Shown one piece after another: positions 32,495 through 47,776 of a stretch of 64,000 bases of DNA (its first letter is position 1; every line of letters starts with the position of its first letter). Made by a program: the position numbers and the translations under genes. Source of the stretch: Acidobacteriota bacterium (GTDB lineage Bacteria > Acidobacteriota > Thermoanaerobaculia > Gp7-AA8 > JAHWKK01); assembly GCA_019347945.1 (NCBI GenBank), contig JAHWKK010000008.1:62001-126000 (forward strand), written 5' to 3'. The notes beneath the pieces were generated by a model that had not been told where the DNA came from, searched no databases, and saw nothing but the letters and a program-made list of their open reading frames with translations.

Positions 32495-34945
32495 ATGGAA
32501 TCGGCAGTCACAGCAACCGACGTCATCATCGTCACAGGGAGCAGCGGCCTGATCGGCTATCCGCTCGCTGCCCGCCTGTCACAGGAGTTCGCGGTCGTCG
32601 GTTTCGATCGGGCAGGACCGCCGCACCCTCCTCCTTCGGCGCATTGCATAACGATGGACATCACATCGGAGGAGCAGACCGCGGCCGCGTTCGACGAGGT
32701 GCGGCGAACCTACGGCGAGCGCATCGCATCGGTGATTCACCTGGCCGCTTACTACGATTTTTCGGGAGAGCCGAGTCCGAAGTATGACGAGATCACGGTC
32801 GGCGGTACCGAGCGTCTCCTCCGTCACCTTCAGCAGTTCGAGGTCGAGCAGTTTCTCTTCTCGAGCACGATGCTCGTGCACGCGCCATCCAGCGCTGGCG
32901 AGCGGATTTCCGAGACGAGCTCTTTGGCGCCCTCCTGGCCCTATCCGAAGTCGAAGGTAAGGACGGAGGCGCTGATCCGCCGGAAGCGTGAAAACATTCC
33001 AGTGCTCTTGATGCGCATCGCCGGCGTCTATGACGGCATGACGCACTCGATCCCGCTCGCACACCAGATGCAGCGGATCGAGGAGCGCGATCCGCTCAGT
33101 CATTTCTTTCCGGGCAATCCATCACACGGGCAGTCGTTTGTTCATCTCGAGGACGTGATCGAGGCGATCCTTCTCGCCGTGGAGCGCCGGAAGACGTTGC
33201 CGCCCGAGCTGGCGCTGCTCATCGGAGAGCCAGATCCGGTCAGCTACGAGAAACTACAGCGGCTGTTCGGCCTTCATCTTCACGGCAAGCCATGGCGAGT
33301 GATGCGTCTGCCGAAAACGGTCGCCAAAGCCGGGGCATGGCTGCAGCAGCAGTTGCCCGTGGTCAAAGAAACGTTCATCAAGCCGTGGATGATCGATCGC
33401 GCGGATGATCACTATCCGCTCGACATATCGCTCGCACAGAAAACCCTCGGCTGGACACCGCGACATTCGCTGCGAGAGACCATTCCCGAGATGATCATTT
33501 CATTGCGCGATGATCCCGGAAAGTGGTATCGGGAGAACAACCTCCCGCCGCCGGGTTCTCTTCGCGAAGATCGCGATGATTCGGGAGCAGAGATGAACAT
33601 GAAGACACACCATGACCTGATGGAAAACTCCGAAGGCCACCACGACATGATGCGGAAACATCATGAGAAGTATCTCTGGTGCCATTTCGCGATCGCTATC
33701 CTGGGACTGTGGCTCCTCAGCAGTCCGGTCGCTTTCGGGCAGCCGCTCGACATCTACGCAGGAAGCCAAATGCTCGCGGGCCTGCTCCTCGTGGTGTTTG
33801 GAGTTCTCTCCGTGAATGGCCGGAGACTATGGGCGCCATGGGGGAGCTGTTTCGTCGGCATCGCTCTTCTTATGGCGCCACTCGTCTTCTGGGCTCGCAG
33901 CGCCGCGAGCTACGCGAACGACACACTCGTCGGTGCGCTGGTGATCGCTCTTTCGGTACTCATTCCGGGCATGCCGGGCATGATGAAGATGCCGGGCGCG
34001 GAGATCCCGCCGGGGTGGACCTACAACCCCTCGAGCTGGCAGCAGCGATTTCCGATGATCGCGCTGGCCTTTTTCGGGTTCTTCCTTGCGCGATACCTGA
34101 CGGCCTACCAACTCGGTCACACCGGCTGGGCCTGGGACCCGTTCTTCGGCAACGGCACGGTACGGGTGCTCGATTCGGACGTGTCGAAGGCGTGGCCGGT
34201 CTCCGACGCCGGTCTCGGCGCTGCGACGTACATGCTCGAAGCGCTGTCCGGGTTCATGGGCGGGCGGGACCGATGGAGAACCATGCCCTGGATGGTGCTG
34301 ATGTTCTTTCTGCTCGTCGTGCCACTCGGCGTCACCAGTATCGTGCTCGTCATGATGCAGCCGGTGATGGTTGGCGCCTGGTGCACTCTCTGTCTGGTCA
34401 CCGCCGTGGCGATGCTCATCATGATCCCTCTGGCGCTCGACGAAGTGATCGCAATGGGACAGTTCATGATGCAGGCGCGCCGCGAAAAGAAGCCGCTCTG
34501 GTCGATCTTCTGGATGGGCGGGAGCATCGAAGGCGAGCGCGACGAGCGCACGGTCCCGTTTACTGCATCCTTGCGCGATCAGTGGCGAGCGATGACGTGG
34601 GGAGTCACGCTCCCGTGGAACATCATGGCAGCGGCGCTCCTCGGTGTCTGGCTACTCGCCGCTCCGGCGGTTCTGGGCAGTAGCGGCGCAATGGCGAACA
34701 GCAACTACATCACCGGAGCGATGGTGACGACCTTCTCCGTCCTCGCACTGGCTGAGGCCGGACGCGCGGCGAGGTTCTTCAATGTCGCGTTTGGCGCCTG
34801 GATCGTCATCGCGCCATTTGTACTGGACCCTTCGGGTGCGGCCGATCGGTGGAACGGGGCCGTTGCTGGTGTGCTTCTCATCTCGCTCTCGATCCGGCGT
34901 GGTCTCGTTCGTGAACAGTACGGGTCCTGGCAGCGGTGGATCTGA
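32495..34945 (+). CDS. NAD-dependent epimerase fused to SPW-repeat/VKOR membrane protein
   Basis: An 816-aa fusion. Residues 1 to about 366 form an SDR/epimerase domain: [15 protein letters not shown] (NAD motif), [10 protein letters not shown], and YPKSK supplying the Tyr/Lys pair. A His/Met-rich linker ([19 protein letters not shown]) follows, then a membrane part (about 385-816). This holds SPW-type repeats ([24 protein letters not shown]) and a VKOR-like disulfide unit with WCTLC at about 629-633. Both halves are in one uninterrupted frame. It could form disulfides or reduce quinone at the membrane in step with a cytosolic NAD enzyme, but that is inference. A small open frame ends 4 nt upstream. 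Confidence 0.82.
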
Positions 34946-34962
34946 CAGGAAGGAAGAATGAG

Positions 34963-37419
34963 ATGAGTACAACGACACCATCACCCGACTCCGATCCAGA
35001 ACCACGTCACGTCGACCCCGTCTGCGGAATGACAGTCGATCCGTCCCGTGCTGCGGGAGATTCCAGGTACCGCGACCAGACGTACTACTTCTGCTCAGTA
35101 AACTGTAAGGAGAGGTTCGACGCCGATCCCGAGAAGTATCTGGCAGCTGCAGGAGAGGAAGAGGATGCAGATGCGTCATCGGCGAGCAGCGCGAGCTCCT
35201 ACATCTGCCCGATGGACCCGGAGGTGCGTTCGGAGAAGCCGGGCCCCTGTCCGAAGTGCGGGATGGCCCTCGAGCCGGAGCGCCCGCAGCTCACGCCGGA
35301 GAGAACCGAATGGACCTGTCCGATGCACCCGGAGATCATCCGCGACGCACCCGGCAGCTGTCCGATCTGCGGGATGGCGCTCGAGCCGCGCGTCGTCTCG
35401 CTCGAGGACGAAGAGAGCCACGAGCTTCGCGACATGCGGAGGAAGTTCATCGTCAGTGCGATTCTGAGCGTTCCACTCGTTCTCTTCGTGATGGGGCCCC
35501 ACGTGGGGCTCGAGTTTTTCGGCGCGATGACGGAGTCGCGACTGGGCCAGTGGCTCGAGCTCGCGCTCGCGACACCGGTCGTCATCTGGGGAGGGTGGCC
35601 ATTTTTCCAGCGCGGCTGGTACTCGCTCGTCAACCGCAGTCTCAACATGTTCACGCTGATTGCCCTCGGTGTCGGCGTCGCGTACATCTACAGTGTCGTG
35701 GCCACTCTGTTTCCGGACCTCTTTCCCGCGTCGTTCCGTGACGGGCACGGGCGCGTCGGCGTCTACTTCGAAGTGGCCGCGGTGATCGTAACGCTCGTTC
35801 TCCTCGGGCAGGTCATGGAGCTGCGAGCGCGCAGTCAGACCGGCGCGGCGATCAAGGCCCTCCTCGGGCTGGCACCGAAGACGGCGCGAAGAATCGAGCC
35901 GGACGGAAGCGAGCACGACATTCCGCTGGATCAGGTTCAGCCTGGAGATATGTTGCGCGTGCGGCCGGGCGAGAAGATCCCCGTCGACGGCACCGTCACC
36001 GAGGGGACGAGCAGTGTTGACGAGTCGATGGTGTCGGGTGAACCGTTGCCCGTGGAAAAGGAAGCTGACGACCCATTGATCGGAGCAACGGTGAATCGGA
36101 CCGGCTCGCTGATCATGCGCGCGGACAGAGTGGGTGCCGACACGCTGCTCTCGCAGATCGTCCAGATGGTGGCGAAGGCGCAACGCAGCCGGGCGCCGAT
36201 TCAGCGACTAGCCGACGTCGTCTCTGCATGGTTCGTCCCGGCCGTGATCGTGATCGCGATCCTCTCGTTCGTGATCTGGTGGATGTTCGGACCAGCTCCT
36301 TCGCTCGCGTTCGCGATCGTCAACGCGGTCGCCGTCCTGATCATCGCCTGCCCCTGCGCACTCGGACTCGCGACGCCGATGTCGATCATGGTCGCCGCCG
36401 GGAAAGCGGCAACCGGGGGAGTTCTCTTCAAAGACGCCGAGGCGATCGAAACGCTCCGCACCGTCGATACATTGGTCGTCGACAAGACCGGAACCCTCAC
36501 CCTCGGAGAGCCGAAGCTCGTCAGCGTCGTCGCCTCCGGTGCCGTGGAGGAGGATGAGCTCCTGCGTCTCGCCGCGTCACTCGAACGCGCGAGCGAGCAT
36601 CCTCTGGCCGAAGCGATCGTCGAGGGAGTGCAGGAGCGTGGTATCAAACTGTCGGGCGTCGAGGACTTCTCGTCCGTGACGGGCAAGGGAGTACGAGGGA
36701 GCGTCGAAGGACGTGATGTCGCACTCGGGAACCGCGCGCTCCTGACGGAGCTCGGGATTGATCCTGCCGACCTCGAGGGCCGCGCGGAAGCGCTGCGTGG
36801 CGAGGGACAGACGGCGATGTTCGTCGTCATCGACGGTCGCGCGGCCGGCGTGATCGCCGTCGCGGACCCGATCAAAGATTCGACACCCGAGGCGATCCAA
36901 CAACTCCATGAAGAGGGGATGCGGATCGTGATGCTGACCGGCGACAGCAGAACGACGGCAGAGGCCGTGGCGAAAAAGCTCGGGATCGACGAAGTCATGG
37001 CCGAGGTGCTGCCGGAACAGAAGGCAGCGGCGATCGAGAAGCTGCAGGGGGAAGGGCGGATCGTGGCGATGGCCGGGGACGGGATCAACGACGCCCCGGC
37101 GCTCGCGCAGGCGCAGGTCGGAATCGCGATGGGCACCGGAACGGATGTCGCGATGGAAAGCGCCGGGGTGACGCTCGTGAAAGGCGACCTGCGCGGTATC
37201 GTCCGGGCACGAAGGATCAGCCGCGCCACCATGCGCAACATCCGCCAGAATCTCTTCTGGGCGTTTGCCTACAATGCACTCGGAGTACCAGTGGCGGCGG
37301 GCGTTCTGTATCCGTTCTTCGGGATTCTTCTGACCCCGATCATCGCCGCCGCTGCCATGAGCTTCAGCTCCGTCTCGGTGATTCTGAATTCCCTGCGGCT
37401 GCGCGCCATGCGGGTGTGA
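34963..37419 (+). CDS. copA: P1B-type copper-translocating ATPase with YHS and two metal-binding motifs
   Basis: An 818-aa Cu(I)/Ag(I) exporter from ATG 34963 (GGAAGGA upstream). Instead of classic HMA domains it carries an N-terminal YHS domain ([12 protein letters not shown], residues about 18-60) and two zinc-ribbon-like metal-binding motifs (YICPMDPEV...CPKCGM near 79; WTCPMHPEI...CPICGM near 116). Then come the ATPase core with CPC at about residue 462 ([11 protein letters not shown]), phosphorylation DKTGTLT at about 506, and [10 protein letters not shown] at about 704. It follows the SDR-fusion gene by 17 nt. Export of copper from the cytosol is the family role. Confidence 0.94.
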
Positions 37420-37521: not shown

Positions 37522-37833
37522 TCACTTCGAGTTCAGTATTGCGCCGAGAGCTCTCGTGATCCTGTCGAGCCGCTCTTCTTCACTCCCCGGCATGCAGGAG
37601 GTGACGCATGAGCGCATCTCTTCCTCCACGAGAATCGCGGCGACGCGATTGATCGCTGCTTTCACGGCCGAAATCTGCAGAAGAATCTCGTCCGCGCAGC
37701 GATGATCGATCACCATCTGCCTCACGCTCCGCAGGTGCCCCTCCGCGCGCGCCAGCCGGTCCGCCAGCGCCTTCTGCGATTCCGCCGTCAGATAGTGATC
37801 AGACTCGGCAACAGGTCTCCGCTTCTTCGGCAT
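37522..37833 (-). CDS. CsoR/FrmR-family metal- or thiol-sensing repressor
   Basis: 103 aa, all-helical DUF156/CsoR fold: ADRLARAEGHLRSVRQMV, the first ligand Cys in HRCADEILLQISAV, and the second Cys in MRSCVTSC. Classic copper CsoR has His four residues before that second Cys; here the position is Glu (EMRSC), as in FrmR-like members. It may therefore sense something other than Cu(I), such as a thiol, sulfide or another metal. It is the last gene of the merT-merP-copZ-csoR row and overlaps the CopZ-like gene by 35 nt. The two C-tract/G-tract operators upstream of the row are its likely targets. Confidence 0.85.
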   Translation of the reverse strand: MPKKRRPVAESDHYLTAESQKALADRLARAEGHLRSVRQMVIDHRCADEILLQISAVKAAINRVAAILVEEEMRSCVTSCMPGSEEERLDRITRALGAILNSK

Positions 37834-38293
37834 TGCTTCCTCCCTGAGCCGTTTCGAACGCGGCTCGTTCCAGATTCATCACGTCGCCCAGACAGCAGCT
37901 CCCTTTTGGGTTTCGAAGCTCGCAGGCACATCGCCCGACCCGAACCAACTCGCGGATTTCATCCGAAACGATCTGCTCTCCTCCGGCACGCTGCCGGATC
38001 GCGCCGACGGAGTGACCGAAGCAATAGCATACGGGAGTACTGCCACTGTCGGGAGCTTTCGAGAAGACGGGCACGCGAACTGAACCGGTGGATACGATCT
38101 CCTCGCCGCTGCCGTCGAAGTAGACGACGGAACAATCTGTCGTCCGGCAGAAGAGCGGATCTCCGGGCATGCCTTCTGCCAGGGCTTCGGGGGTTGCCAT
38201 GATCCTGACGATCGTGTCGGATACCGCCGTCCCTGGCTGACCACATCGAGGGCAGGAGCCAGGAGCAGTCCGATCGCTTCCGGACTCAGTCAC
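37799..38293 (-). CDS. CopZ-type iron-sulfur/zinc copper-chaperone domain protein
   Basis: 164 aa resembling the N-terminal Cys-rich domain of Archaeoglobus CopZ, which holds a 2Fe-2S cluster and Zn and can reduce Cu(II) for chaperone loading. Visible elements are CPRCGQPG at the start, LFCRTTDCSVVYFD, the CYCFGHS cluster region and a late CACELRNPKGSCCLGDV motif. No HMA domain is fused; the separate MerP-like gene upstream would supply it. It overlaps MerP by 8 nt and the CsoR-like gene by 35 nt, so the four genes are translationally coupled. Confidence 0.82.
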   Translation of the reverse strand: MTESGSDRTAPGSCPRCGQPGTAVSDTIVRIMATPEALAEGMPGDPLFCRTTDCSVVYFDGSGEEIVSTGSVRVPVFSKAPDSGSTPVCYCFGHSVGAIRQRAGGEQIVSDEIRELVRVGRCACELRNPKGSCCLGDVMNLERAAFETAQGGSNAEEAETCCRV

Positions 38294-38609
38294 TGTCGTT
38301 TCCCTCGTCGAGGACTTCAGTCTCGTAGGTGAGCTTTTCCTGAATCGTCCTGGCGATCTGTTCAGCAGTCACCCGCTCCGGATCGAACGTGACGATCGCG
38401 CGACCTTTCTTCCAGTCGACCTTCGCATCGTGAACGCCATCGATCTTCTTCACGACCGCCTTGACCGAGACGGCACATCCGCCGCACGTCATCCCTTCGA
38501 TCTTCAGAACGGTCTGCTCCTCATGCACCCCTGCCGCCTCGGGTCCGAAGAGCCCGGCCAGCACGGCCGTGACTGCGAGCAGAACTGTCACTACTGCGAT
38601 TCGCTTCAT
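38286..38609 (-). CDS. merP: MerP-like periplasmic HMA metal-binding protein
   Basis: 107 aa with an N-terminal signal/anchor (MKRIAVVTVLLAVTAVLAGL) and one HMA domain with the ordinary metal site GMTCGGCAVSVK. The beta-alpha-beta core continues with KKIDGVHDAKVDW and IVTFDPERVTAEQI. It binds Hg(II) or Cu(I) in the periplasm and hands it to MerT. It lies 37 nt after merT. Unlike the two TGA-containing HMA genes in this window, it keeps both cysteines. Confidence 0.9.
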   Translation of the reverse strand: MKRIAVVTVLLAVTAVLAGLFGPEAAGVHEEQTVLKIEGMTCGGCAVSVKAVVKKIDGVHDAKVDWKKGRAIVTFDPERVTAEQIARTIQEKLTYETEVLDEGNDSD

Positions 38610-39098: not shown

Positions 39099-40448
39099 TT
39101 ACACCATGTAGGGCAGATCCGAGCCCTTCGTGGGATACGCCCACATGACCTGCTTCAGCTCCCCCGCTGGAATCCCGCTCTGCATCGCCAGCGCAAACAG
39201 GTTGATCAGCTCTTCGGAGCCGTGACCGAGGAGGTGCGCCCCCACGATGCGTCCGGTAGCGCGCTCGACGAGCACCTTGTGCATCGCCGCGTCTTCACCG
39301 ATGCGGCGCGAGCTGAACCAGCCGGAGGTCTGCTGCATCTGAACCTCGATCTCGACACCGCTGTCACGTGCGTCCTTCTCGCTCAGGCCGACGCGGGCGA
39401 GGGGGGGTATCGTGAAGACGACACTGGGAATCACCTCATGCGTGGCTTCCCGCGCTCCCTCCTTCACGATGTTCGACCCGATGATGTGCCCGTGAGCGAC
39501 GGCAACGGGTGTGAGTGGAATGCCGGCGTCGGCGGCGTCCCCACCAGCCCATACTGCACTGTTCGAGACGCTTCGCAGGGTGCGATCGACCGTGATGCCT
39601 CGAGGAGTGGCCTCGACTCCTCCTGCTTCGAGATCGAGAGGATCGATTCGCGCAACACGACCTCCGCCATGAACCACGAGCTCGGTCGGTACCGTCGCAG
39701 AACCTTCCGGACCTTCGATCGCTACATCGAATCCGTCCCCGCGCGAGCTCACCCCGACCACCTTTGTTTCCGTCAGGATTTCGATTCCGAGGCTTCGGGT
39801 CGCCTCGACCAGCGTCTCGACCAGCTCTGGTTCGAAGGGTCCGAGCGGCCTTTGCGCCATCTCCAGGATTCTCACCCGTGATCCAGCGCGGGCGGCGACG
39901 TGCGCAAATTCGAAGCTGATGAATCCACCACCGACGAAGGTGACGTCTCGCGGTAGCGACTCGACATCGAGAAAGTCGGTGCTGGTCATCAGATGGCTGG
40001 CTCCCTCGAACGGAAACGGGAACGGCTCGGCCCCTGTCGCGATCACGATCTGGTCGGCGCGTACCTCGATGCCCTCGAGATCGAGTGTGCCCGGTCCTTT
40101 GAAACGCGCCCGTGCATGCCGTGTCTCCACGCCAGCCTTCTGCAGCCGTCGCTCACTCTTCTCAGGTACCGGATCAGTGAAGCTCCGCTTGAAGCGCTGA
40201 AGCTCCGCCCAATCGATCTCCACGGATTCGCTGCGCACTCCCGATCCTCGCATCCGCCGGGTCCAGTCGATCGCTTCGGCTGCCGCGACGAGGATCTTCT
40301 TCGGATCACACCCGCGCAGTGCACAGGTCCCGCCGTAGGGAAGCTCGTCCGTGATCAGTACCTTCCGTCCAGCTGCGGCACAGCGCACCGCAGCGGTCTG
40401 TCCTGTCGCCCCGGTACCGATCACCACGACCTCGAATCTCGCGTTCAT
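39099..40448 (-). CDS. MerA/glutathione-reductase-like flavoprotein disulfide oxidoreductase
   Basis: 449 aa of the pyridine nucleotide-disulfide oxidoreductase family. FAD motif VVVIGTGATGQTAAVRCA, redox cysteines in GGTCALRGCDPKK, NAD(P) motif VTFVGGGFISFEFAHVAA, FAD/quinone region WAGGDAADAGIPLTPVA, and a C-terminal dimerisation domain with LLGHGSEELINLFA. MerA proper adds an N-terminal HMA domain and a C-terminal Cys pair; both are absent, so reduction of Hg(II) is uncertain and a thiol or trypanothione/mycothione-like role is possible. It has its own upstream C-tract/G-tract operator. It is followed 83 nt later by merT. Confidence 0.86.
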   Translation of the reverse strand: MNARFEVVVIGTGATGQTAAVRCAAAGRKVLITDELPYGGTCALRGCDPKKILVAAAEAIDWTRRMRGSGVRSESVEIDWAELQRFKRSFTDPVPEKSERRLQKAGVETRHARARFKGPGTLDLEGIEVRADQIVIATGAEPFPFPFEGASHLMTSTDFLDVESLPRDVTFVGGGFISFEFAHVAARAGSRVRILEMAQRPLGPFEPELVETLVEATRSLGIEILTETKVVGVSSRGDGFDVAIEGPEGSATVPTELVVHGGGRVARIDPLDLEAGGVEATPRGITVDRTLRSVSNSAVWAGGDAADAGIPLTPVAVAHGHIIGSNIVKEGAREATHEVIPSVVFTIPPLARVGLSEKDARDSGVEIEVQMQQTSGWFSSRRIGEDAAMHKVLVERATGRIVGAHLLGHGSEELINLFALAMQSGIPAGELKQVMWAYPTKGSDLPYMV

Positions 40449-40520: not shown

Positions 40521-41225
40521 TCAGCCGGACGCGCGCATCATGACCAGCCCCGACCATGCGAACCAGATGGCGACGGCGAAGAGAATGATGGCGCTGGCGA
40601 GCTCGATCGGTCGCTGAGAACGGCGGATGCGGAAGATGGCTCGTGATGCCGCACCGGCGAACCAGCCGACGAGGAGGAAGGGAAGGCCTCGTCCGATCGC
40701 ATACGCGAGCGAGAGAAATGCTCCCCAGGCTGGCTTCCCGACCGCCGCGGAGAGAGTCAACAGGAGCATCAGCGGGCCGGCCGAGGTTGTCACGGCCGCA
40801 ATGCTGTAGACGGCCCCGTATGCGAATGCACCCGCGACTCCCCATTGCGGCGGACGGATCGTACGGGACCGCCGCGGAATGACGGCGATCAGTCCAGCAA
40901 GGAAAGAGATCGCCGCGATGGTGAAGGTGAATAGGACGTCGTACTGCCTGAGGACCTGTCCGGCATACGCGGCGACCGTCCCGAGGATCACGAGAACACT
41001 GATCACCGCGGCGAAGAACGAGGCCGACAGGACAAGGCTGCGATTGCGGCTGTGGGCTCCGGAGCTGTCTGCACCCACGTACCCCGCGATTCCCGCACCT
41101 GCGGGAATGGTGAATGGTCACGTCGCGGTCGAGAGTAATCCAGCGACGAGCCCTATCAGAATCGCGAGTCCCGGGGCTCCCGCGATCGCATCGGAAAAAC
41201 GCGCGATCAGCTCAACCGGCGACAT
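40521..41225 (-). CDS. CcdA/DsbD-like membrane protein, predicted selenoprotein (Sec at residue 36)
   Basis: Reading through one in-frame TGA (41120-41118) gives a 234-aa protein from ATG 41225 (GGAAGGAT upstream). Before the TGA: residues 1-35, ending GLVAGLLSTAT. After: PFTIPAGAGIAGYVG and about five helices. CcdA/DsbD proteins have a redox Cys exactly here, in SPC-x-x-P of the first helix, so the TGA replaces the catalytic Cys. The usual second Cys (TM4, C-x-A-P) reads TTSAGP here. A perfect hairpin, an 8-bp stem with AGGT loop, begins 9 nt after the TGA. The family moves electrons across the membrane to periplasmic thiols. Its start overlaps the preceding frameshifted gene. Confidence 0.8.
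41089..41108 (-). other. SECIS-like hairpin after the CcdA-like TGA
   Basis: ATTCCCGC and GCGGGAAT pair perfectly over 8 bp around an AGGT loop. The loop starts 17 nt after the TGA and has G in its second position, meeting the usual bacterial SECIS geometry. Confidence 0.75.
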
Positions 41226-41640
41226 GGATCAGAATCCTTCCGGCAGTCCAGAAGATCAGGGATGGTAGGACGAGCATCTGCAGAATCGGAATCCATCCGA
41301 CACGAAGCCCGGGGATCCGGGGCATTCGATCGCCGTACTCCCATCGACGGAGACGGTGCACGGCGATAAGCTCGACCAGGAACGCGAGCACGAGCCCGGT
41401 GACGAGGATAAGCGCCAGTCTCATCCAGTCCATGACGACGAACCACGCGACCGTTCCGAAGGCGATCCAGCCGGCGATCAGAATCAAAACGATCATGAGA
41501 CCGTCTCCCAGAGATGCAATGAGACACCGGCGCAGCCGGCGCGACCCGTCTCGCTGCATCCATAAAGCGGAAACTGCAGCATCTCCCACGCGAGATTCAC
41601 CGCGACGGCGATAACGAACACTAGAAGGATGCCGGCCATG
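41212..41640 (-). pseudogene. Small membrane protein gene split by a frameshift
   Basis: ATG 41640 begins a natural N terminus (MAGILLVFVIAVAVNLAWEM, then LQFPLYG) that stops at a TGA after 48 codons. The rest of the protein (CLIASLGDGLMIVLILIAGW onward, ending at 41212) is in another frame. The intact relative at 51017-51460 has the same plan (FAWEMAQ, then ASAGDVVIT and four helices), so one reading-frame change occurred near 41520-41550, next to a repeated GCGCCGG. It is either a decayed gene or a sequencing error. It overlaps the CcdA-like start by 14 nt. Confidence 0.65.
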
Positions 41641-41692: not shown

Positions 41693-42069
41693 TCACGTAG
41701 AGTTCTCCTCATCTTCGAGAGCTTCGAGGATCGGACATTCAACATCGTCGGTGGCGCAGGCGCAGGAAACGACCAGAGCATCCAGCGCTCTTCGGATCGA
41801 CTGGAGCTGCCGGATCTTATCCTTGACGCTGTCGATCTTCTGTTGCGCCATCAGACGGATCTGATCGCGATCGATTCCGCGTGCGGATCGCATTTCCAGA
41901 AGATCGTGAACTTCCTCGAGAGTAAAGCCGAGATCCTGGGCAGTACGAGCCTGCACCGTTGTGCCTGCGGGTCCGGACCGGCATCGGCCGCTGGCTTCTC
42001 GCATGCCGCGGCGACCAGCGCGGCCGCACTGATGATCAGAAGGCGAGATGCCATGTTCATACGATTCAT
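41693..42069 (-). pseudogene. Lipoprotein start joined out of frame to a MerR C terminus
   Basis: ATG 42069 has AAGGAG upstream and starts a lipoprotein signal (ASRLLIISAAALVAAACEKP). After about 35 codons a different frame carries the last two thirds of a MerR regulator (AQDLGFTLEEVHDLLEMR, then the coiled dimer helix and VSCACATDDVECPILEALE with metal-binding cysteines). The MerR winged-helix DNA-binding part is missing. This is a deletion junction near 41955 that destroyed both genes. It lies 22 nt after the HMA-CcdA gene. Confidence 0.6.
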
Positions 42070-42091: not shown

Positions 42092-43153
42092 TCAAACGGT
42101 GAAGACGCGAGAGAACTCCTGCGCGAAGATCGCGAGAATGAGGAGCCACGTGCCCACTGTGACGAGAATCCAGCCTCCGATCCGCTTGACGTCCTTCGCC
42201 CGGGCCTGCATCCGCTCGAGAACCTGTTCCTGTGCGCTTGCAATGGAGAAGGAAAGTGAAAACATCAGAATGACGATCGCCAGTGCGGCGACGGCGAAGG
42301 CTCCCAGCGCCGAGGCGGCACTGCCGATTGTGAGGGCATGTCCGGCCAGACCGGTCAGAATAGGCCCCGTTCAGCCAAACCCCGCAAGAAGATAGCCGAA
42401 TCCGAAAAGCCCGAACGACAGCACCGGATGATCCCGGCGTCTACGCGCCTGGGCCCGCATGAACGGACGACCCATCACGCCGAGCCGGTGGAGAGGGTTC
42501 GGCAAGATCCCCATCTGGACGAGACCGAGCACGATCAGAAAGATACCGACAGTCGTCCTGATCGTCCGGCCGGCAGTGCTGGTGAATGTAACGCCGGCGA
42601 ACAGCGTTCCCGCGCCGAAAGCAATCGCCGCTCCGGCGAGGATCAGGAAGAGTGCCGCTCCGATCGAAAGCGACGTGGCAAAAAGGACAGCGCGGCGGGC
42701 CGTCCCCGGACCGCGGCCGGATTCACGAGCCAGGAGCGTCACCAGCAGCGGGAACACGCACGGAGAAAAAAACGATGCGACCCCCGCACCGATCGAAAGA
42801 ACGATCAGACCCGAAAAATCGACGGCGGGAAGATCAAAGCGGGGGTAGAGCTCATAGCCGGCATAGCCGACGAGGGCAAGGAGTATCAGCGCTCCGATGA
42901 TGAAGAGGTAGGGCCGCGAACGGGCGACCGGTCCCGGAGAGGGTTCGCTCCTCGGTGGAAAACCCGCGTCGCTCAGTCGCCGCGCGAGCTCCTCCTGCGA
43001 GACGACCGATTTATCATGCTCGATCGTCACGCTGCGGCCGACCGTGTCGACCTCGAGCATCTCGATCCCCTCAACCTCCTCCATTTCGTTCCGGATCATC
43101 TCCGAGCACCCGTCGCAGGTGATTGGTAAATTGTCGAACGTGGTTTTGCTCAC
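42092..43153 (-). CDS. HMA-CcdA fusion membrane protein, predicted selenoprotein (Sec at residue 261)
   Basis: Translation through the TGA at 42373-42371 gives 353 aa. Residues 1-70 form an HMA domain (NLPITCDGCSEMIRNEM). A membrane anchor follows near 85-105, then a CcdA-like domain. The first redox Cys is normal (ASFFSPCVFPLLVTLL). The second, expected in the GY-x-x-A-x-x-x-C-x-A-P stretch, is the TGA: GFGYLLAGFG-U-TGPILTG. After it, 92 more codons encode further helices (GSAASALGAFAVAALAIVIL) and end in VFTV at 42092. The family passes electrons through two paired Cys. Any SECIS hairpin here is weak (GACCGGTC dyad). It follows the HMA selenoprotein gene by 43 nt. Confidence 0.78.
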
Positions 43154-43196: not shown

Positions 43197-43721
43197 TCAG
43201 TCCCGCGTCCCTTTCGCCTCCGAGCGCAGAGCGAACTCCCTCACATGAAGCATCCGCGGGAGCTCGTCGCCTCGGTCTTCACGGATGATCCCCGTCACGA
43301 CGATTTGTTTGCCGGAAAAGCCATCATGAATCTCCTTTGCGATGCCTTTCGAAGAAGGGTGGTCTTCGAGTAGATAAACGATGCCGGAGCCGGTCACCTC
43401 AAGCGCCGGCAGTTCGCGATGAATCGCCGTGCCCGCGATGCGGACGGTCGCATGCTTCGGAGTGAAGCCGCTGTCGATCGCCACCTGGCGGATCTCGTCG
43501 ACAGTGACCTCATTCTCCGGCTTGAATTGAATTGTGGCAATTCCCTCGTTCAGGGAAACTTCCACCGATTCGACGCCATCAATCTTCTCTAGTGCCACGC
43601 GCACGGCGTGAGCGCAGACGGCTCAGTCCATGCCGAAGATCGTCTGACGCATCTCCAGCAGCTCTGCATCGACCGTAACCAGGATCAAGATCAGCAATAC
43701 CATCAGTGCAGCACGTCTCAT
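43197..43721 (-). CDS. Secreted HMA-domain protein, predicted selenoprotein (Sec at residue 33)
   Basis: ATG 43721 has GGAGGAG upstream and begins a signal peptide (RRAALMVLLILILVTVDA). The HMA core then reads RQTIFGMD-U-AVCAHAVRVAL with TGA (43625-43623) in place of the first metal-binding Cys of GMxCxxC. The frame continues 141 codons: HMA remainder (GVESVEVSLNEGIATIQF) and a C-terminal beta-rich, OB-like domain. Total 174 aa. It lies behind a MerR/CueR-type promoter and heads the minus-strand cluster. The paralog at 46706 has TGA at the same place. A hairpin with loop 17 nt after the TGA is present. Confidence 0.82.
43594..43611 (-). other. SECIS-like hairpin after the HMA TGA (first copy)
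   Basis: CACGC and GCGTG pair around a CGTGC loop; the loop starts exactly 17 nt after the TGA and has G second. The DNA here is nearly identical to the other HMA gene although the two genes differ elsewhere. Confidence 0.6.
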
Positions 43722-45197: not shown

Positions 45198-45410
45198 GTG
45201 CAGACGCTGAAATCGCGAAAGCTCAGTCCCACGGACCTGCTCAGCAGTTCTCTCGTGGTGGCAATCGACCGCGCGCCGACCGGCCTCAGCGCCCGGTCAT
45301 TCCAGCTCGGACAGCGCCTCCAGGTCACCGGCTCGATCGGCAAGACCCGAGATGGTGGCGTCGGCTTCGTCGCTTCGACAATCCAGGCCAGTGATGGAGG
45401 CCGAACGTGA
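45198..45410 (+). CDS. Small OB-like protein of the mer-type row
   Basis: 70 aa from a GTG with AAGGAG 9 nt upstream; its TGA overlaps the GTG start of the MerT-like gene (GTGA), which supports it as a real, coupled gene. The middle (LLSSSLVVAIDRAP, RLQVTGSIGKTRDGGVGF) has the strand pattern of a small beta-barrel/OB fold. No cysteine, signal peptide or helix anchor. No family recognised. Confidence 0.5.
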   Translation: MQTLKSRKLSPTDLLSSSLVVAIDRAPTGLSARSFQLGQRLQVTGSIGKTRDGGVGFVASTIQASDGGRT

Positions 45411-45835
45411 ATATGGTTCGAAACGCGAGTCTCACCCGTTCGAGAACCACCAGCAGCGTGGGCAGTTTCTTTTCTCTTTTTACATCGGTCGGCACGCTCC
45501 TCTGTTGTGCTCTCCCTTCGCTTCTGGTTCTCATCGGTCTCGGTGCGACGGTTGCCTCGACACTCTCGGCAGCCCCGTGGCTCGTGACCCTGTCGCGCAA
45601 TAAGGAGTGGATGTTCCTTGGCTCGGGGCTGATGATCGGTGCAAATTTCTTCTACGTCTATTCAGTGGGGCCGCGTCTTCGGGCTCATCAGCTCTCCTGC
45701 GATCCCTCCGCTCCGGAGGCATGTGACGTCGCCACTCGTTTCAGCCGCGTCACGCTCTGGATCTCCGCGGCTGTGTGGGCGGCTGGATTTTTCGTGGCCT
45801 TCATTCTCGGACCATTACTGATGAGGTTTGGATGA
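45407..45835 (+). CDS. MerT-like membrane metal transporter (second copy)
   Basis: 142 aa from the GTG at 45407 (GGAGG upstream). Three helices (about residues 23-48, 65-85, 112-136). The vicinal Cys pair on the first helix (GTLLCCALPSLLVL) is retained, with two more Cys in the loop (LSCDPSAPEACDV). It is a distant relative of the MerT at 38647. It overlaps the following outer-membrane-type gene by 4 nt. Hg(II) or another thiophilic metal is the likely cargo. Confidence 0.82.
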   Translation: MNMVRNASLTRSRTTSSVGSFFSLFTSVGTLLCCALPSLLVLIGLGATVASTLSAAPWLVTLSRNKEWMFLGSGLMIGANFFYVYSVGPRLRAHQLSCDPSAPEACDVATRFSRVTLWISAAVWAAGFFVAFILGPLLMRFG

Positions 45836-46692
45836 TGAAACAGGTTATTTCTCTTCTCGCTCTCGCACTCGCATTGATAGCCGTCGGCCCCGATCTGATG
45901 GCATCAGGACACGGCCCCGTTTACGGACTCGCAACGCCAACCCTGGGAAAAGGAGGATGGAGCCTCGACACCGCAATCATGGTGCGCTCGGAGGAGGTGG
46001 ATCGGGAGAGCGTGATGGCGCGACCGATGGTAGGGTACGGGATCACCGAGGACCTTCAGCTGTCGTTCTCGGTTCCCGTTGCGATTTACCGTGAGGAGGG
46101 TTTGCAACCGGAGCGGGCGATGGCGATGATGCCTGGAACTCCCGACGTGGAGTTCATGGTCAACTGGCGATTCCACCGAGAGGGAACGGACGTCGGCGCA
46201 CGGTTCGAGAGTACCGCCTTCTTCGGCCTCGAGTATCCGACCGACTCGGTACGTGCCGGGGTGCGAACGTCACCAGGAGTTCTCGGCGGCGTGGTCACGG
46301 GATATGCATCCCGCAGCATCTACGCATGGGCTGGCGGACTCTACCAGAGATCGATGAGCCCGCGCAGCGCTACCGCCGATCACATCGGCGATCTCGGGAT
46401 GGTCAGTCTGGTCTTGGGGTACAGGCCTCAGGTCTTTCGCCAGGAACTGCCACATCCCGACTGGCGTCTGTTCGTGGAAGCGATCGGAGAGTGGCGTCAG
46501 CCGGACATCCGGAATGGAATTGAATTGGCGAACCGGGGGGGCGAGCAGGTGTTCATTGGTCCTACGGTGCTCGGTCTCTATGGACCCTGGGGGATCTCCG
46601 GGGGACCGGTCTTCCCGGTCTACAGCGATTTGAATGGCGACCAGCCGGAGGAGAACTACCGGTTCGTCGTGAACTTTACCTACTGGTTCTGA
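45832..46692 (+). CDS. Outer-membrane beta-barrel-type protein of the metal cluster
   Basis: 286 aa from ATG 45832 (overlapping the MerT-like stop). Signal peptide MKQVISLLALALALIAVG, cut near LMASG. The mature part has alternating beta strands (WSLDTAIMVRSEEVD, LQLSFSVPVAIYREEG, SIYAWAGGLYQRS) and ends in an aromatic strand (VVNFTYWF), typical of an outer-membrane barrel with a terminal Phe. It may let metal or a substrate pass the outer membrane. The first codons resemble a fragment near 50325, part of the duplicated segment. Confidence 0.7.
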   Translation: MMKQVISLLALALALIAVGPDLMASGHGPVYGLATPTLGKGGWSLDTAIMVRSEEVDRESVMARPMVGYGITEDLQLSFSVPVAIYREEGLQPERAMAMMPGTPDVEFMVNWRFHREGTDVGARFESTAFFGLEYPTDSVRAGVRTSPGVLGGVVTGYASRSIYAWAGGLYQRSMSPRSATADHIGDLGMVSLVLGYRPQVFRQELPHPDWRLFVEAIGEWRQPDIRNGIELANRGGEQVFIGPTVLGLYGPWGISGGPVFPVYSDLNGDQPEENYRFVVNFTYWF

Positions 46693-46705
46693 GGAGAGTG
46701 TTCCC

Positions 46706-47251
46706 ATGAAGCGAATCATACGAGTCATTGTTGCTGCGGCACTCGTGCTCATCCTGACGCCGCTGAGCGCCAGCGCCGAGATTCTCTCGATCCGGCAGAC
46801 CATCTTCGGCATGGACTGAGCGGTCTGCGCCCACGCCGTGCGCGTGGCCCTGCAGAAGATCGAAGGAGTCGACTCGGTACGAGTCTCACTCAACGAAGGA
46901 ATCGCCGACGTCCGGCTGAAGGAAGGCAACGAGGTGACCATTGAACAGGTCCGGCAAATTGCCACCGACAGCGGATTCACGCCCAGGGGGGCGGAGGTCG
47001 AGGTCGCCGGAACCATCGTCTCTCACAGGGAAGCCGGTCAGGTCGCCTTTCGAGTGACGGGTCAGGACTTGATCTACATTCTCGTCGACGATCCGAAATC
47101 GGAAGGCGCGGTGCGACGGCTGCGGAAGCGTCCGCCCGAGCACGAGATCGTCGTGAGCGGGTTCGTCCCCGAAGAGCGGAAGGTGAACGAGCCGAGGGCG
47201 CTTTATCTGAGAGAGTTCGAGCGGAGAGAGCAGAGAAAGGCTGCTCAGTAG
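46706..47251 (+). CDS. Secreted HMA-domain protein, predicted selenoprotein (Sec at residue 38)
   Basis: 181 aa when the TGA at 46817-46819 is read through. Signal peptide MKRIIRVIVAAALVLILTPL, then RQTIFGMD-U-AVCAHAVRVAL, matching the protein at 43197. The TGA takes the place of the first Cys of the HMA metal site; the second Cys is kept. The 144 codons after it continue the HMA fold (GVDSVRVSLNEGIADVRL) and an OB-like C-terminal domain (EVEVAGTIVSHREAG, IVVSGFVPEERKVN). GAGGAG precedes the ATG, 13 nt after the previous stop. It could bind metal through a selenolate. Confidence 0.83.
46831..46847 (+). other. SECIS-like hairpin after the HMA TGA (second copy)
   Basis: CCACGC/GCGTGG stem with CGTGC loop; the loop starts 17 nt after the TGA and has G second. 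It is the same structure and position as in the HMA gene at 43197. Confidence 0.62.
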
Positions 47252-47338: not shown

Positions 47339-47776
47339 ATGCTTCGGATCGGTGAACTGGCAGAAGTGTGCGCAGTGGGAACGAAGACGATACGGTACTA
47401 CGAGAGTATCGGGCTGCTTCCTCCACCACCGCGCAGCGAAAATGGATACCGACGTTACGACGGCGCGGCAGTCCTGCGTCTGCGGTTCATCACGAAGGCG
47501 AAGGGCCTGGGACTCAGGCTCGCCGAGATTCGGGAGATCCTGAGCCTGCACGACCGAGGCGAGTCGCCATGCGATCGCGTTCTGAATCTCACTAAGGAGA
47601 AAATCAATTGGGTCGATGAGCAGATCCGGGCTCTCCAGTTATTCCGTACAGACCTGCAGCAGTTGTGGCACGAAGCACAGGAGAGCCGGGCTCAGACCCG
47701 CGATTGCGTCTGTAGTCTCATAGAAGATCACTCGATTGCGCAGGAAGCCGCGTACCCGCGTCAAAAACTCAACTAG
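47339..47776 (+). CDS. MerR-family metal-responsive activator
   Basis: 145 aa with AGAAGGA 7 nt upstream. Winged-helix N terminus (RIGELAEVCAVGTKTIRYYE, then GLLPPPPRSENGYR), a middle helix (AKGLGLRLAEIREILSLHD), a long dimer helix and a metal loop. Candidate metal ligands are the Cys in GESPCDRV and the CVC pair in TRDCVCSLIED, as in MerR/ZntR/PbrR relatives. It closes the plus-strand row and is the likely regulator of the three 20-bp-spacer promoters. A near-identical but broken copy of most of it lies at 50401. Confidence 0.92.
   Translation: MLRIGELAEVCAVGTKTIRYYESIGLLPPPPRSENGYRRYDGAAVLRLRFITKAKGLGLRLAEIREILSLHDRGESPCDRVLNLTKEKINWVDEQIRALQLFRTDLQQLWHEAQESRAQTRDCVCSLIEDHSIAQEAAYPRQKLN

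Follow-up and report, generated by a model that had tools for sequence, protein, structure and literature searches.

A predicted selenocysteine form of a C-P-C CcdA-like membrane protein, encoded within an acidobacterial metal-gene island

The Locus and Its Genes

The term 'window' describes here the whole stretch of Acidobacteriota DNA that was analysed, 64,000 nucleotides in length. Within it lies what is, as judged from sequence, a selenocysteine (Sec, U) form of a C-P-C CcdA-like subfamily, found in an island where four selenoproteins are predicted. The gene of primary concern, A, is on the minus strand, running from ATG 41225, with a well-placed upstream GGAAGG, to a TGA stop at 40523-40521. 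Its frame is interrupted once by a TGA, at 41120-41118 between GLLSTAT and PFTIP, leaving 35 codons on the upstream side and 198 on the downstream side, which is how an earlier, sequence-only reading had described it and how it still stands upon re-reading of the ORF.

40521-41225, minus strand: predicted CcdA-like (DsbD_TM) selenoprotein A, 234 aa, U36 in STAT-U-PFTIP
41118-41120, minus strand: in-frame TGA of A, predicted Sec U36, aligned to the invariant first Cys of C-P-C
41089-41108, minus strand: predicted bSECIS hairpin of A, ATTCCCGC-AGGT-GCGGGAAT, apical loop 17 nt past the TGA

The ORF upstream of A ends at 41212, thereby overlapping the start of A. That directly upstream region (41212-41639, minus strand) is readable as a membrane-protein gene in two overlapping frames, i.e., MAGILL...LHLWETVS and a stop, and then, through an ATGA overlap, an ATG that opens the next frame, and looks like either one frameshift-split gene or two coupled genes.

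Three island neighbours of A appear from their sequences also to use UGA as selenocysteine, and are designated here as B, C, and D:

42092-43153, minus strand: predicted HMA-CcdA fusion selenoprotein B, 353 aa, site one SPC (Cys), site two GFG-U261-TGP; HMA 28.3 bits
42371-42373, minus strand: in-frame TGA of B
43197-43721, minus strand: predicted exported HMA (MerP-like) selenoprotein C, 174 aa, GMD-U33-AVC; HMA 47.1 bits
43623-43625, minus strand: in-frame TGA of C
46706-47251, plus strand: predicted exported HMA selenoprotein D, 181 aa, GMD-U38-AVC; HMA 40.8 bits
46817-46819, plus strand: in-frame TGA of D

D is a paralog of C, with 51% identity. Among relatives of C and D, the position of the U is occupied by U in two genomes (G210 and G107), by U..U in a third (G095), and by C in three others, with selA present in the three Sec-form genomes and absent from the three Cys-form ones. 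B is assigned as CcdA because its membrane part matches ordinary CcdA proteins by tblastn (to 1.8e-11, the U aligning with the Cys of PCxGP), that is, not because of profile comparison with the A family, where B as a single sequence reaches a probability of 2%. Searches for B homologs returned only B itself (at 1e-15 in 297 phylum genomes and at 1e-6 in 149 class genomes), with no TGA-bearing homolog from another organism in those same searches and no homolog found on plasmids.

The remaining metal genes of the island are as follows:

34936-37419, plus strand: metal P-type ATPase with YHS and HMBD domains, CPC motif
37522-37833, minus strand: CsoR/RicR-like metal-sensing repressor; NF052430 45 bits, below cut-off
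37799-38293, minus strand: CopZ-type iron-sulfur metallochaperone; NF047645 100.9 bits, above cut-off
38286-38609, minus strand: MerP-like HMA protein with Cys (CGGC); HMA 63.5 bits
38647-39033, minus strand: MerT-like transporter; PF02411 46 bits, above cut-off
39099-40448, minus strand: MerA/glutathione-reductase-like FAD disulfide reductase, directly downstream of A; TIGR02053 264.7 bits, below cut-off
41693-42004, minus strand: MerR-family regulator, C-terminal part; PF09278 44.9 bits
45407-45835, plus strand: membrane protein with LLCCALP, partner of the D-type HMA gene; near C/D-type HMA in three other genomes
47339-47776, plus strand: MerR-family regulator; MerR_1 66.6 bits

Of what would define a mer operon, MerR, MerT-like, and MerP-like genes are all seen, with the reductase scoring under the MerA cut-off and lacking the two C-terminal Cys (CC) that true MerA has. 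The CopZ-type protein is all Cys, its relatives including a known (seleno)protein family, NF045877. Within 45407-47251 there is a trio that is conserved in other genomes of the phylum (three loci), consisting of a protein encoded at 45775-46692, an HMA protein (U or C), and the LLCCALP membrane protein. Neither the 45775-46692 protein nor the LLCCALP protein has a Pfam match.

A as Member of a C-P-C CcdA-Like Subfamily

Assignment of A to the CcdA family, as proposed by the sequence-only reading, holds up both by sequence and by fold. Against Pfam DsbD_TM (PF02683), A scores 29.6 bits, with a gathering cut-off of 27.1, and its homologs score 34-62 bits. The AlphaFold model of A (mean pLDDT 80) has a first helix that is broken at U36-P37-F38, and the top PDB fold match by Foldseek is CcdA 5VKV (probability 0.99, TM about 0.5, E-value 0.09); sequence search of the PDB with A gave no match. 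The closest relatives of A among 396 genomes of the phylum are 37-40% identical. When 84,980 species genomes were scanned, 73 A-type loci were obtained, distributed among Acidobacteriota, Planctomycetota, Bacteroidota, Proteobacteria, and other phyla. Plasmid relatives are few, i.e., 4 records, annotated as CcdA.

What these proteins share is a C-P-C motif. Cys is found at the position of A's TGA codon in 71 of 71 homologs covering the site, a proportion that is inflated by one of the two scan patterns having required a Cys there, and all are C-P-C, i.e., with Cys also at the position of A's Phe38. At least five members have motif variants falling outside of the Cys pattern, and were retrieved by the other pattern. 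The N-terminus also is common to these homologs, so that they do not start downstream of the TGA, an outcome which the sequence-only reading had itself named as adverse to its claim. Just past the TGA, P37, T39, P41, G43, and G45 are invariant or nearly so across the family, and because of that conservation it would seem that this stretch is translated.

The same reading had placed the TGA at the first redox cysteine of a CcdA protein. As a Cys position this stands, but the Cys in question is the first of C-P-C, whereas the single Cys of the NPC or SPC of ordinary CcdA proteins aligns instead with Phe38 of A, two residues past U36. A second-site Cys, furthermore, is found in none of the 74 subfamily members. 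The TTSAGP that had been pointed out at the second site of A is indeed there, its missing Cys being a trait common to all homologs. A canonical electron-transferring CcdA or DsbD protein has one redox Cys per broken helix, which is not the arrangement seen in A. The A subfamily therefore probably lacks the two-Cys electron relay of CcdA/DsbD, i.e., is unlikely to run a two-site relay, as there is no second Cys. So too a two-ligand site inside of the motif would be unavailable to A itself, since the second Cys of C-P-C is in A a Phe.

Predicted bSECIS Hairpins

The TGA of A is followed by 9 nt (CCATTCACC) and then by a perfect 8-bp stem, ATTCCCGC pairing with GCGGGAAT, around a 4-nt AGGT loop, much as had been reported earlier from the letters alone, including as to its fit to bacterial SECIS rules. 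Those rules call for a loop of 3-9 nt with G in its first two positions, a spacing of 16-37 nt, and an energy of -7.5 kcal/mol or below (PMC13188914), and these constraints are satisfied by A, B, C, D, and also by selD of the same genome. By itself this general rule is weak evidence, as 44% of random window TGAs pass at -7.5 kcal/mol. More restrictive descriptions are passed less often. A perfect stem of at least 8 bp that closes a loop of 3-8 nt, with G in the loop's first two positions, is seen with 8 of the window's 2013 TGAs (both strands), a best rule-conforming hairpin at 17-18 nt and at or below -9 kcal/mol with 13 of 500 random TGAs, and the loop spacing of 17-18 nt that is common to A, B, C, D, and selD with 24 of 500 (about 5%).

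The hairpin of B has the loop GGUCU, 18 nt downstream of its TGA, while those of C and D both have CGUGC at 17 nt. Hairpins of the HMA genes C, D, G210, and G107 have CGTGC in common, with an outer stem pair that is U-G, C-G, A-U, and C-G, respectively. Rfam at gathering thresholds and ARAGORN, as applied to the 64-kb window, gave no matches.

One relative, G396, as found among 19 genomes of the order, possesses a TGA at the same codon as A, i.e., LSTST-U-PCTLPAGVGVVGYVGA (STST-U-PCTLP), in a genome that possesses selA. Its hairpin has the register and AGGT loop of that of A and retains 7 of 8 pairs. Relative to A there are two double compensatory changes (T-A to C-G and C-G to G-C), in a region where protein sequence is also conserved. 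Folded in the same register, Cys homologs average -6.6 kcal/mol, versus -12.8 and -10.7 kcal/mol for the two TGA forms. The G396 gene stands after a MerR gene and one encoding an HMA-ATPase-HMA protein. Beyond about 116 residues its ORF continues as unrelated sequence, and as this divergence occurs on a 5.9-kb contig, that copy may be broken or misassembled.

Selenocysteine versus Other Readings of the TGA

Machinery for Sec insertion is encoded in the assembly (3.72 Mb in 49 contigs, 99.65% complete), that is, selA (453 bits), selB (355 bits), selD (353 bits), and a tRNA-Sec with anticodon TCA (68.9 bits). Absence of such machinery had been put forward as another outcome that would count against a selenoprotein, and it is not what is seen. 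In combination with the Cys homologs and the TGA-bearing relative of the same order, the earlier proposal of a membrane selenoprotein consequently may be described as strongly supported, at least so far as may be predicted from genomes.

The TGA could instead be a true stop, i.e., that of a decayed gene or due to sequencing error, leaving at most a short peptide along with re-initiation at GTG 41078. The standard code does provide just a 185-aa ORF from that GTG, and the seeming disruption of the G396 gene would be in keeping with decay. The GTG is without a clear ribosome-binding site, however, as contrasts with the GGAAGG of ATG 41225, and starting there would lose the first transmembrane helix as well as the conserved residues between the TGA and the GTG. 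Nor would a stop be expected of four separate island TGAs that are all at Cys positions, in frames that are otherwise free of lesions, or of a relative with the same TGA plus a compensated hairpin. This reading I consider to be quite improbable. Still less credible, indeed barely worth entertaining, is a changed code in which TGA is read as some other amino acid such as Trp. Nothing was seen in its favour, and it is contradicted by the normal use of TGA as a stop, as genes of the window, A included, end at TGA, readthrough of TGAs elsewhere generally gives nonsense, tRNA-Sec and SelB are both present, and the aligned residue is Cys.

Other predicted selenoproteins are found in this genome. The selD gene (L018:388-1335, G000:C24) has its own in-frame TGA, predicted to read ATSGG-U-ACKLG, and 17 nt beyond it lies the loop of a hairpin. 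A thioredoxin-like ORF (L144; G000:C26:54239-54568, minus strand) has an in-frame TGA in SPG-U-LGC, i.e., UxxC, making it a selenoprotein candidate. The TGA of a rhodanese gene was considered as a further candidate but was rejected, as it is that gene's normal stop.

Metal Transfer versus Electron Transfer

The sequence-only reading had suggested that A might serve in electron or metal transfer. That much is supported, with the genes surrounding the subfamily appearing to favour metal over electrons. A MerP-like HMA match is found at 65 of 73 loci, a P-type ATPase at 62 of 73, and MerR at 35 of 73. The linked ATPase is of a YPC type in 36 of the 39 instances with a detectable motif. With the sequence MGYPCALG it accompanies C-P-C CcdA-like proteins in many phyla (six loci noted, among others), and often a further HMA protein or domain (NMVCEGC) goes with it. 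A literature search on YPC-type P-type ATPases found no paper. In the present island there is no YPC-type ATPase adjoining A.

Soft metals, mercury among them, are held far more tightly by selenium than by sulfur. On the favoured reading, the UGA at 41120-41118 would be decoded as Sec by SelB and tRNA-Sec, with the bSECIS hairpin lying immediately downstream, and A would be a CcdA-fold inner-membrane protein in which Sec replaces the first Cys of C-P-C, where the first transmembrane helix is broken. The selenolate of A might then serve as an in-membrane ligand, handing on the ion of a soft metal, of the Hg(II) or Cu(I) kind, between the exported UxxC HMA carriers (C and D) and cytosolic handlers, which could be the HMA of B, the MerA-like reductase, and the P-type ATPase. 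Soft-metal transfer across the membrane is accordingly put forward as the most likely role of A, with metal, direction, and transfer chemistry all being inferred, and the island as a whole suggests a cell that may use selenium to handle metals such as mercury.

The main rival which remains is a redox role. That is, A would be a selenoprotein whose Sec relays electrons across the membrane, keeping the UxxC of C and D, or else B, in reduced form, as CcdA/DsbD does for periplasmic partners. A has the CcdA fold, with a reactive residue at the first helix break, the periplasmic UxxC proteins of neighbouring genes would, once oxidized, have to be reduced again, and the gene following A encodes a disulfide-reductase-like flavoprotein. 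Set against this are a motif with only one reactive residue, the second-site Cys used by CcdA being missing from 74 of 74 members, and metal ATPase and HMA genes as neighbours of most of the subfamily, so that an electron-relaying A strikes me as unlikely. That A is both a selenoprotein and a CcdA-fold C-P-C protein with a probable in-membrane soft-metal ligand role is, jointly, the best explanation and one in which I have fairly good confidence. The fuller conjecture, of a selenium-based relay in which a soft metal (e.g., mercury) would cross the membrane by moving between the selenolates of C, D, B, and A, is a tentative one, holding perhaps somewhat less often than it fails. Were it true, then the CcdA fold, here predicted to be used for metal rather than electrons, would gain a metal-transport function, with Cys being used in place of Sec in the wider C-P-C subfamily beside YPC-type P-type ATPases.

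Relation to Known Systems

With the CcdA/DsbD transmembrane domain (PF02683) A shares its fold, the broken first and fourth helices, and a reactive residue then Pro at the first break. It differs in having Sec at the first C-P-C position, Phe in place of the canonical Cys, no second-site Cys, and a location among metal genes. The best NCBIfam match of the A subfamily is TsoB (NF045694), which like A is a selenoprotein with a DsbD-type membrane part, and which has been described as rhodanese/DsbD fusion-like with the motif UxxxxU (PMC13188914). A nevertheless scores just 13.2 bits against a cut-off of 805, and has neither the two Sec nor the rhodanese part of TsoB. For the proposed model there is a likeness as well to MerT and MerTP transporters and to the MerT_CopZ_Se selenoprotein (NF045683), i.e., an in-membrane thiol or selenol that takes metal from an HMA carrier, but A is of another family (CcdA). 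Similarly, the SO_0444 family Cu/Zn efflux transporter (NF033936), as listed among prokaryotic selenoproteins (PMC13188914), is a membrane metal protein with Sec (UxC), though again of another family and without a match to A in the NCBIfam scan.

A 2026 review of prokaryotic selenoproteins includes MerT, MerP-like UxxU, CopZ-like, SO_0444, and TsoB families but no CcdA, and calls for more work on what Sec does in metal-resistance proteins (PMC13188914). CcdA goes unmentioned there as also in PMC9312934, PMC2398784, PMC12013277, and PMC5029168. A Sec-containing CcdA of the A type was not found in the literature searched. What the locus would add, then, is four predicted selenoproteins, two of them CcdA-type, within one compact metal-resistance cluster, and the exposing of a widespread C-P-C CcdA-like subfamily that is coupled to HMA proteins and YPC-type P-type ATPases. 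Such systems probably are undercounted, as by the standard code all four genes are truncated ORFs.

C and D resemble the MerP/HMA selenoproteins (NF041115, UxxU_metal_bind), including the 'MerP' selenoproteins of GOS (PMC2398784, PMC13188914), in that both are exported, have an HMA domain, and carry a predicted Sec within the metal-binding motif. They differ in having UxxC rather than UxxU and an additional C-terminal ~90 aa, scoring 50.6 and 39.7 bits versus a cut-off of 95. A selA-positive genome encodes an HMA protein whose motif contains two TGAs, GMI-U-GL-U, i.e., UxxU (L133; G095:C16:56765-57232).
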